64,000 nucleotides of DNA. Source: Thiohalospira halophila DSM 15071. GTDB lineage: Bacteria > Pseudomonadota > Gammaproteobacteria > Thiohalospirales > Thiohalospiraceae. The stretch covers positions 186,001 to 250,000 of the forward strand of contig NZ_FOMJ01000002.1 of NCBI RefSeq assembly GCF_900112605.1. Direction: 5' to 3'. Shown here piece by piece: positions 20,548 to 58,875 of this stretch; within the stretch, counting starts at the first letter, position 1, and each line of letters opens with the position of its first letter. The notes below the pieces were generated by a model. That model did not search any database. It was given only the letters and a program-made list of their open reading frames with translations, and was not told the origin of the DNA. A program made the translations under genes and the position numbers.

Positions 20548-20634
20548 GTCGGTGCTCACTGTCCCGGGGCCCTGGTATTCCGACAAGTGGTCGTTGATGG
20601 GCCATCGACGGAAGGCGATTCGAGCAGCCGGGTG

Positions 20635-20730
20635 GGGTGGGATGGCTCGGCAGGAGCCTCGGCGGCATGGATGCAGCCGTGGAGGCTACAGGGACGTATG
20701 TACGCCGTCTCCTGCCGAGCCATCCCACCC
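20635..20730. repeat. Hairpin element copy 1 (22-bp arms, 52-nt core)
   Basis: Arms 20635-20656 and 20709-20730 are perfect inverted repeats (left arm starts GGGTGGGATGG). The 52-nt core 20657-20708 begins CCTCGGCGGCATGGATG and contains CAGGGAC. The same core recurs at 27913-27963 and, inverted, at 49126-49176 and 58105-58156, whereas the arms are unrelated in sequence. It fills part of the 321-base gap between the asnO-like gene and grxD. The rest of the gap holds the grxD promoter and nothing else that I can see. Confidence 0.9.
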
Positions 20731-20779
20731 TAGCCGGCGCCCATCCGATTGGCGCCCAGGGCAATCCCTAGCGCGGTAC

Positions 20780-27878: not shown

Positions 27879-27997
27879 GGCCCTGTCGGGGAGAGGTAGG
27901 GGGTGCACGGGGCCTCGGCGGCCATGGATGGCCGCCGTGGAGCGCCAGGGATGGTCCTCGCGTCCCCGTGCACCCCCTACCTCTCCTCGACAGGGCC
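27879..27997. repeat. Hairpin element copy 2 (34-bp arms, 51-nt core)
   Basis: Arms 27879-27912 and 27964-27997 are inverted repeats of 34 bp with one G-T pair (left arm starts GGCCCTGTCGGGGAGAGG). The core 27913-27963 begins CCTCGGCGGCCATGGATGG. CGGCGGCCAT pairs with ATGGCCGCCG inside it. This core matches the inverted core of copy 3 at 49 of 51 bases, yet the arms share no extended similarity. It sits in the 401-base region between the divergent fumC and pdhA genes, which otherwise holds only promoters. Confidence 0.93.
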
Positions 27998-49291: not shown

Positions 49292-49978
49292 TCAACCCTG
49301 GGCTGCCGCCTCCGGCTCCGGTTCGGGGGCCGGGGCTGGCCGGGCGGCGGCGCGGGCATCGACGATGTTCTTCACCGCGATGAGCAGGCCCAGGCCGATG
49401 AAGGCGCCGGGGGGCAGTACGGCCAGCAGGAAGCCCTCGTAGGCCTCCCACTCCAGGGCCAGGCCCCGGGCGGCCTCGCCGAACATCAGGTGGGCATCGG
49501 CGAACAGCGTCCCCTGGCCGATCATCTCCCGCAGGGCCCCCAGCACCACCAGCACGGCGGCAAAGCCCAGCCCCATCATCAGGGCGTCGTACATCGACGG
49601 GAGGATGGGATTGCGGGAGGCGAAGCCCTCGGCCCGGCCAATGATGCCGCAGTTGGTGACGATGAGCGGGATGAAGATCCCGAGGATGCCGTAGAGCTCG
49701 TGGAACCAGGCGTTCATGGCCAGTTCGATGGCGGTCACCGCCGAGGCGATGATGAGCACGAAGGTGGGCAGCCGAATCTCCGGGCGCACCACGTTGCGGA
49801 TGATGGAGACCAGGGTGCTAGAGATGAGCAGGACCAGCAGCGTGGCCAGCCCCAGGCCCAGGCCGTTGACCGCCGAGGTGGTCACCGCCAGCAGGGGGCA
49901 GAGGCCCAGGAGCTGGACCAGGGCGACGTTGTTGTTCCACAGGCCCTGGTTGCGGATGTCGCGGTATTCCTCGTTCAT
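49292..49978 (-). CDS. rnfE: Rnf complex subunit E
   Basis: A 228-residue membrane subunit with six helices, homologous to RnfA and NqrD. It has [19 protein letters not shown] at the start, the [11 protein letters not shown] half-motif with its membrane [2Fe-2S] Cys, and an Ala/Pro/Glu-rich tail. The start overlaps the rnfG stop (ATGA). It ends the rnfABCDGE unit. The complex moves electrons between NADH and ferredoxin (or reduces SoxR) coupled to ion transport. Confidence 0.95.
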
Positions 49979-56951: not shown

Positions 56952-58043
56952 ATGGCGAACGTTTCCGAGCAGCAGGTGGAGACCGCCCTCAAGGGGTATG
57001 TGGATCCCTACATGGACCGGGACCCGGTCTCGGCGAAGATCGTCGACGGGATCCAGGTCGACGGCGACCGGGTCACCGTGAATCTCAAGGTGGGCTTCCC
57101 CGTCGAGGGCTACCGGGACGAGCTCGCCGCGGCGGTCCGCGACGCGGTGAAGGGCGGTACGGAGGCCAGCGACGTTACCGTCAACATCGAGCAGAAGGTG
57201 GAGACCCACTCGGTGCAGCAGGGCGTCTCCCCCATCTCCGGGGTCAAGAACATCATCGCCGTGGCCTCCGGCAAGGGCGGCGTGGGCAAGTCCACCACGG
57301 CAGTGAATCTGGCCCTGGCCCTGGCCGCCGAGGGTGCCAAGGTGGGGCTGCTGGATGCCGATATCTACGGCCCCAGCACCCCGCGGATGATGGGCCTCTC
57401 CGACAAGCCCGATTCCAAGGACGGCAAGACCCTGGAGCCCATGGTCAACTACGGCGTCCAGACCATGTCCATCGGCTACCTCATCGACGAGGATACCCCC
57501 ATGGTCTGGCGCGGGCCCATGGTCACCCAGGCCCTGGAGCAGCTGCTCAACGACACCAACTGGGACGACGTCGACTATCTGGTCATCGACCTGCCGCCGG
57601 GCACCGGCGACATCCAGCTGACCCTGGCGCAGAAGGTGCCGGTCTCCGGGGCGCTCATCGTCACGACCCCCCAGGACATCTCCCTGCTGGATGCGCGCAA
57701 GGCGCACAAGATGTTCGAAAAGGTCTCGGTGGACACCCTGGGAATCATCGAGAACATGTCCATCCACATCTGCTCGAACTGCGGCCACGAGGAGCACATC
57801 TTCGGCGAGGGCGGCGGTCAGTCCATGGCGGACGAGTACGGGATCGACCTGCTGGGCTCGCTGCCCCTGGATATCCACATCCGCGAGCAGGCCGACGGCG
57901 GCAAGCCCACCGTGGTCGCCGACCCGGACAGCCGGCTCACCGAGATCTACCGCCAGATCGCCCGGCGGACGGCGGCCCGGCTCTCCCTCAAGGGGCGGGA
58001 GTACAGCCACAAGTTCCCCAACATCGTCATCCAGGACAACTGA
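56952..58043 (+). CDS. apbC: Mrp/ApbC Fe-S cluster carrier ATPase
   Basis: A 363-residue Mrp/NBP35-family protein. An N-terminal MIP18-like domain (VEGYRDELAAAV) precedes the deviant Walker A GKGGVGKST (107-115). DADIYGPSTPRMMG, DYLVIDLPPGTGD and the cluster-binding CSNCGHEEHIFGEGGG follow. It assembles and transfers [4Fe-4S] clusters, which fits the Fe-S-rich Rnf complex and Nth nearby. A TAGAAT -10-like box is at 56853-56858. metG-mrp-dcd is a common gammaproteobacterial order. Confidence 0.95.
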   Translation: MANVSEQQVETALKGYVDPYMDRDPVSAKIVDGIQVDGDRVTVNLKVGFPVEGYRDELAAAVRDAVKGGTEASDVTVNIEQKVETHSVQQGVSPISGVKNIIAVASGKGGVGKSTTAVNLALALAAEGAKVGLLDADIYGPSTPRMMGLSDKPDSKDGKTLEPMVNYGVQTMSIGYLIDEDTPMVWRGPMVTQALEQLLNDTNWDDVDYLVIDLPPGTGDIQLTLAQKVPVSGALIVTTPQDISLLDARKAHKMFEKVSVDTLGIIENMSIHICSNCGHEEHIFGEGGGQSMADEYGIDLLGSLPLDIHIREQADGGKPTVVADPDSRLTEIYRQIARRTAARLSLKGREYSHKFPNIVIQDN

Positions 58044-58186: not shown

Positions 58187-58305
58187 AGGTATTCTCCGGG
58201 GAAAGGACGCGGTCTTCCTGCCCACCGGCCTCGGCCACTGGGGTGGCGGCCGTCGCCGTGCTACCCTCCCCGGCTTCCCGGAGGCGCGGCGACGAGGGCC
58301 CGAGC

Positions 58306-58875
58306 ATGAGCATCAAATCCGACCACTGGATCCGGCGCATGGCCACCGAGGAGGGGATGATCGACCCCTTCGAGCCGGAGCAGGTGCGCACCGGCGAGGA
58401 CGGCTCGCCGCTCATCTCCTACGGCACCTCGAGCTACGGCTACGACATCCGCTGTGCCGACGAATTCAAGATCTTCACCAACATCAACTCGGCCATCGTC
58501 GACCCCAAGGCCTTCACCGACGAGAGCTTCGTCAGCTTCAAGGGGGATGTCTGCATCATCCCGCCCAACTCCTTCGCCCTGGCGCGCACGGTGGAGTACT
58601 TCCGGATCCCCCGCTCGGTGCTTACTATCTGCCTGGGCAAGTCGACCTACGCCCGCTGCGGGATCATCGTCAACGTGACGCCGCTGGAGCCGGAGTGGGA
58701 GGGCCACGTCACCCTGGAGTTCTCCAATACCACGCCGCTGCCGGCCAAGGTCTACGCCAACGAGGGCGTGGCCCAGCTCCTCTTCCTGGAGTCGGACGAG
58801 GTCTGCGGGACCTCCTACGGGGATCGCGGGGGCAAGTACCAGGGGCAGCAGGGGGTCACGCTGCCCCGCTCCTGA
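58306..58875 (+). CDS. dcd: dCTP deaminase
   Basis: A 189-residue enzyme that makes dUTP from dCTP. It starts [36 protein letters not shown], the catalytic-Glu region [14 protein letters not shown] and [14 protein letters not shown] are signatures. The ATG at 58306 follows GACGAGGGCC. It shares orientation with apbC, from which it is separated by hairpin element copy 4. Confidence 0.95.

Follow-up and report, generated by a model that had tools for sequence, protein, structure and literature searches.

Several described families of repeats and RNAs resemble the elements analysed in this study. The YPAL or RU-2 sequences are palindromic sequences of Yersinia, reportedly described by De Gregorio in 2006 and by Delihas in 2007. 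These repeats are reported to be intergenic, dispersed and mobile, with empty sites and a target-site duplication of 3-26 bp, and to be co-expressed with upstream genes, perhaps with an effect on RNA stability; reports of them come only from Yersinia and Erwinia. REP and BIME sequences are likewise short intergenic palindromes present in many copies, with REPs being 20-40 bp long and carrying GTAG or CGTC tags.

A second relevant group consists of the regulatory RNAs CsrB/CsrC and RsmX/Y/Z, in which GGA hairpin loops bind CsrA and thereby act as a sponge. These RNAs are encoded by a few dedicated sRNA genes that have their own promoters and many sites each. TwoAYGGAY (RF01731), which is recorded from human gut, gammaproteobacteria and Clostridiales, was proposed by Gardner and Eldai to be a CsrA-binding RNA and constitutes the nearest precedent for the reading presented here. 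Finally, Ysr224 (RF02770, Yersinia sRNA 224) is ranked by a survey among the most prevalent bacterial sRNAs. Our search of the open-licence literature yielded no account of a dispersed CsrA element, and CsrA went unmentioned in the YPAL/RU-2 and other repeat literature searched.

Results

Four elements in the window and their copies in Gammaproteobacteria

The window, which is the whole 64 kb stretch of Thiohalospira halophila DNA that we analysed, was searched for perfect inverted repeats (arm >=14 bp, gap 3-80). This search returned four elements and nothing else, which excludes chance as their origin. Their perfect arms of 22, 23, 34 and 19 bp (copies in order) flank gaps of 51-52 nt and lengthen to 30-34 bp when one or two mismatches are tolerated. 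The original prediction had located four long hairpins in this window, and we re-found each of them in its place with long inverted arms around a 51-52 nt core. Each core forms a three-way RNA junction in which a closing stem (P1) encloses two short hairpins (P2 and P3). The window copies, each 112-119 bp long, are as follows:

20627..20738, + strand, copy 1: subfamily GGCTAC/GTACGCC; P1 arms 20635-20656 / 20709-20730 perfect, 30 bp if two mismatches are counted in; P2 loop AUGGAU, P3 loop AGGGAC; 88.6 bits with covariance model R1
27879..27997, + strand, copy 2: short-core subfamily (51 nt); P1 34 bp with one mismatch; P2 loop AUGGAU, P3 loop AGGGAU; R1 57.3 bits
49092..49210, - strand, copy 3: short-core subfamily; P1 34 bp, perfect; P2 loop AUGGAU, P3 loop AGGGAA; R1 57.6 bits
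58075..58186, - strand, copy 4: subfamily GCCGAC/TTACGGC; P1 30 bp with two mismatches (G-U on its strand); P2 loop AGGGAU, P3 loop AGGGAC; R1 86.9 bits

Using gene positions called from codon usage in the present analysis, each copy sits between predicted genes, with two copies on each strand, which agrees with the earlier claim that all four are intergenic and occur in both orientations. Among the neighbouring genes with a Pfam match, a dehydrogenase E1 gene lies downstream of copy 2 and an Rnf-Nqr gene (49292-49978, -) upstream of copy 3, which follows it in sense orientation after a gap of 81 nt. Copy 4 is antisense to both of its neighbours, an ORF at 56952-58043 (+) and a dCTP deaminase gene, likewise with a Pfam match, at 58243-58875 (+). 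Between copies 2 and 3 the core shows only two differences over 51 bases, the 49 of 51 identity that had been noted. The grouping of copies 1 and 4 into one subtype stands only in part, given that both have AGGGAC yet fall into separate subfamilies (GGCTAC..GTACGCC versus GCCGAC..TTACGGC).

A blast search with copy 2 gave nine clear places in the genome of this organism. R1, a covariance model based on 32 elements aligned without gaps, 30 of them external, detects 44 copies in the draft genome of 2.69 Mb at E < 1e-5 and recovers the window copies at 57-89 bits, so the further copies that the original prediction anticipated do exist. The complete copies from the blast search have arms of 19-38 bp that are all different and near-perfect, and their cores measure 51-54 nt. 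The copies of this genome fall into several subfamilies with alternative yet complementary P3 stems (GGC/GCC, GCC/GGC and CC/GG), which therefore represent compensatory changes. In one subfamily (GGCGGTCGGTGC.AGTCCC..) the arms are related (L156, L157, L159, L163, L168, L171, L178 and L179) and GAAAAGGCC or a close variant is often found directly upstream; related arms together with a shared flank are what diverged duplicates would show. We also observed a degenerate short-core right half at L008 1501-1543 (C1:755619-755661) that adjoins a complete copy (L002) and is without a pairing arm.

Outside of this genome, more than 118 DNA stretches match the exact core pattern, including ones from Marinobacter, Luteimonas, Stenotrophomonas, Halomonas, Rheinheimera, Microbulbifer, Pectobacterium and Pantoea. 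R1 was positive in 47 of 276 sampled Gammaproteobacteria genomes, and all 24 positives in a phylum-wide sample were Gammaproteobacteria. The highest copy numbers found with R1 are at least 148, followed by 134, 106, 78 and 51. The original prediction of a dispersed element present in high number is thus supported by the 44 genome copies, the class-wide spread and the empty orthologous sites found elsewhere (see below).

The genome of T. halophila has two csrA genes, and csrA is present in 46 of the 47 element-bearing genomes versus 241 of all 276, hence in about 195 of the 229 negatives, a weak association for which genome size is a confounder. The one carrier in which csrA was not found is a genome bin (G187) with nine matches that is 98% complete in 270 contigs, and it counts against a CsrA role.

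The core is an RNA junction with one selected strand

The consensus element has the order 5'-P1 - YGU - P2 - A - P3 - GU - P1'. The P1 stem, about 28-30 bp long, varies in sequence between copies and is almost perfectly paired. P2 comprises 7-9 bp with the hexaloop C-ANGGAY-G, and P3 consists of GCN, UAC, the hexaloop C-ANGGAY-G, GUA, a UUYAC bulge and NGC. RNA folding z-scores for the window copies range from -9.7 to -14.1 relative to dinucleotide shuffles. Among the 32 aligned sequences, both-side changes occur in 23 of 27 modelled pairs, and the covariation score is 0.713 versus 0.18 for shuffled and about 0.12 for slid partners. Note that P1 arms, unlike P2 and P3, were selected for complementarity, so the weight of covariation in P1 rests on the slid control and on its fixed position beside the core.

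The mismatches within P1 reveal which strand is acting. When read on the motif strand that carries AUGGAU/AGGGA, the mismatches in 97 distinct external elements are G-T/T-G in 79 cases versus A-C/C-A in 10 under symmetric scoring, and in the T. halophila genome there are 28 G-U versus 7 A-C. This excess persists whether a copy is sense or antisense to its upstream gene. Any process that works on double-stranded DNA would yield G-U and A-C alike, so the 79:10 ratio indicates that the motif strand is selected as RNA. The G-U excess is our main evidence that RNA of the motif strand is under selection, with single-stranded DNA of that strand as the alternative; the same strand-specific excess disfavours a DNA-level palindrome devoid of RNA function. 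This strand-specific RNA structure and the two CsrA-type loops are additions beyond what had been noted before.

A side observation concerns two elements (L208 350-473 and L196 1257-1381) that carry an insert of ~48 nt. The L208 insert lies in P3 and makes a third hairpin, CCUACAUGGAUGUAGG, with the loop AUGGAU.

Relationship to known families

The printed 168-nt RU-2 (YPAL) sequence from Y. pestis has the same core and the same fold, with loops AAGGAU and AUGGAU. Specifically, its P2 loop AAGGAU is followed by GAGCCUACAUGGAUGUAUUUACGGCGU and the unit is closed by a long arm pair, as in the window copies. We found the full core pattern in YPAL/RU-2, consisting of the P2 hexaloop ANGGAY and GAGCC/GUACANGGAYGUAUUYACRGCGU with inverted arms around them. 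Presence or absence at orthologous sites, as reported for YPAL, is also seen here in Marinobacter. However, RU-2 is 168 bp long with imperfect arms whereas the window copies are 112-119 bp long with near-perfect arms, and none of them matches the YPAL unit length of 167-168 bp. On these sequence grounds we assign the elements to a wider superfamily that includes YPAL/RU-2 rather than to YPAL in the strict sense. The original prediction could not name a repeat class with certainty; the core does belong to a known Yersinia repeat, but its wider reach is not described there. What was already known is therefore the Yersinia branch, YPAL, while the reach of the family and its link to CsrA are undescribed in the open-licence literature searched.

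R1 recovers the Pectobacterium copies at 62.9-65.2 bits, on one strand. Ysr224 matches the same Pectobacterium locus with 82.3 and 73.3 bits (threshold 70), so this region is already catalogued as an sRNA. The Ysr224 model corresponds to the opposite strand of the element and at its threshold misses the other copies tested. The prevalence of Ysr224 would fit a dispersed repeat. Ysr224 is antisense to the element at L110 1767-1873 and L044 638-745, both in Pectobacterium, and the Rfam strand assignment may need a check.

TwoAYGGAY is like the elements in having two GGA-loop hairpins and a poorly conserved outer stem, but the P3 loop of the elements is mostly AGGGAY, unlike that of TwoAYGGAY. 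Its gathering threshold was not reached by any of the 44 T. halophila copies, with copy 2 the only one touched and a best score of 35.9 versus 43 bits. The elements also differ from CsrB and RsmZ in being two-site units that number from tens to more than 100 per genome and have no promoter signal. In line with the proposed comparison with Rfam, the window was run against that collection and gave no match at gathering thresholds; microRNA matches at low threshold were discarded as generic long hairpins. Separately, 5_ureB_sRNA of Rfam scores strongly (64-118 bits, threshold 40) in three loci near elements, at L071 2804-3090, L030 2869-3046 and L224 1011-1297. Two of these three loci are from Halomonas, and this family, very prevalent per the survey, may be a repeat too or have an over-broad model.

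Comparison with REP sequences, also called for by the original prediction, showed that the elements differ in length (~110 bp) and in having a three-way junction. No Y1 (RAYT) transposase was found beside elements in the T. halophila genome, where the sole Y1_Tnp gene lies at 141 kb on contig C4, away from the elements at 81 and 85 kb of that contig. RAYT mobilisation was accordingly rejected on the basis of this genome, and the gene located between one inverted pair of elements is by eye a Nudix-like ORF.

Both hairpin loops carry a CsrA-type motif

An R1 alignment of 99 copies shows each hexaloop to be A-N-G-G-A-Y, with N alone free and a near-invariant C-G pair closing the loop. In the P2 loop, A occurs in 98/98, N is G48 T43 A5 C1, the two G positions are conserved in 97/98 and 98/98 and the following A in 94/97; the P3 values are A 97/99, N = G74 T15 C5 A4, G 98/98, G 98/98 and A 96/98, with pattern-based picking of the external copies skewing the sample to the commonest core. 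The position left free in each motif is the base that CsrA does not specify, which supports a CsrA reading, as does the presence of ANGGA in two hairpin loops that are paired as for a homodimer. The P3 region is mostly SUACAGGGAYGU, with GUACAGGGAUGU in many copies, and fits RUACARGGAUGU, the published CsrA selection (SELEX) consensus; among the listed papers that contain this string, most concern CsrA/RsmA. Paired GGA hairpins in RsmZ bind one CsrA dimer. Against this reading stand conserved bases beyond the loops (U15, A39, UUYAC and GU63-64) that CsrA binding does not account for. These bases may determine how P2 and P3 are arranged relative to each other, or may interact with a different partner.

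Orientation, mobility and expression signals

External copies are sense versus antisense to the upstream gene at ratios of 63:40 and 59:41 in two counts, and the T. halophila copies at 16:15. Near-random orientation is also seen in tandem and divergent gaps, and many copies are <100 nt from a stop codon. Stable hairpins near gene ends might suggest Rho-independent terminators with an unusual loop. We regard this as highly improbable, given that a U-tract was not found after P1 (each of the ten positions that follow has 10-23% T) and that termination does not require a conserved loop. A scan upstream of the elements likewise found no sigma70-like signal (z near 0), and this lack of a promoter signal, with ~40% of copies antisense to the upstream gene, counts against the CsrA reading. 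Replication-strand bias was provisionally set aside, as copies of opposite orientation sit near each other on the same contigs.

Of those aligned at one Marinobacter locus, two species carry the element in one orientation and two more have it reversed, with related arms, while it is missing from the remaining 26. The empty site of a close Marinobacter relative (L234) is without the core and without both arms, and two others (L235, L236) retain arm pieces that resemble deletion scars; insertion of the core into a pre-existing hairpin was rejected on these grounds. No clear target-site duplication is visible when filled and empty sites are aligned at one Marinobacter locus. Opposite orientation also occurs in two further orthologous Marinobacter pairs, with most pairs agreeing. 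Inversion of the core between its inverted arms is the likely explanation, the alternative being independent insertions into the same gap, and a core that flips in place would account for the weak orientation bias.

This behaviour also bears on whether the elements are local cis-acting CsrA sites that control decay or translation of their own neighbouring mRNA and not the free CsrA pool. The slight sense excess, the many copies close to stop codons and the reported expression of YPAL with upstream genes would all suit such sites. However, orientation is nearly random with tandem and divergent gaps included, the core flips at one locus between sister species and, as a weak point, the few neighbouring genes tested share no common class. 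We therefore consider purely local action somewhat unlikely.

Amplification is evident in Luteimonas, where many copies have identical arms, indicating that whole elements can also amplify. A tandem array in G441 (contig C1, L225 1288-2652) contains six 227-bp units with about 89% matches between units, each made up of one element and a REP-like hairpin (TGTAGGAGCGGCTTCAGCCGCGA).

Taken alone, such features would fit selfish palindromic repeats of a MITE/REP-like kind with no CsrA role, in which the hairpin serves mobilisation or mRNA-end protection and another protein recognises the GGA loops. The large number of copies, their presence or absence at orthologous sites, the Luteimonas amplification, the G441 array with its REP-like hairpin, random orientation, the conserved bases beyond the loops and the description of YPAL as mobile are all in its favour. 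Nevertheless, the G-U excess on one strand and the compensatory changes seen in all helices indicate RNA function, ANGGA occurring twice with a free N is a CsrA signature, and the one Y1 transposase gene of the T. halophila genome is distant from the contig C4 elements. A purely selfish origin is on this evidence unlikely.

Discussion

We propose that these elements are dispersed mobile-like repeats of the YPAL/RU-2 superfamily, the RNA of which bears two CsrA/RsmA-type hexaloops (ANGGA) and functions as a distributed CsrA sponge, a reading that we consider fairly probable. Computation on the DNA shows the RNA structure, which strand is selected, the loops with ANGGA and the dispersal of the elements, as well as empty sites and probable in-place inversions. 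A role as a CsrA sponge is probably the case, and for this role we infer both CsrA binding and transcription from sequence features.

In the mechanism that we envision, the elements would be transcribed within intergenic or 3' UTR RNA. A transcript of the AUGGAU...CAGGGA strand would then fold such that P1 forms and holds both hairpins in place, and one CsrA dimer could clamp the P2 and P3 loops. A regular duplex of about 28-30 bp is a suitable substrate for RNase III, and this enzyme could excise the element from longer transcripts via the 30-bp P1 stem. Many copies together would titrate CsrA, with possible local effects on host mRNA. A broader version of the sponge reading, in which tens to more than 100 dispersed, self-similar two-site decoys, cut via P1 and flippable, form a genome-wide buffer that determines how much CsrA is free in many Gammaproteobacteria, is a tentative possibility.

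The analysis ties together YPAL/RU-2, Ysr224 and TwoAYGGAY-like RNAs, which are separate in the literature searched, and provides a covariance model, R1, that finds the family. If CsrA does bind these elements, then a repeat class long seen as mobile or structural DNA would join one of the best-studied global regulators. With at least 148 copies in some genomes, potential CsrA-type loops beyond the known Csr RNAs would number up to about 300, and CsrA target models omit them.
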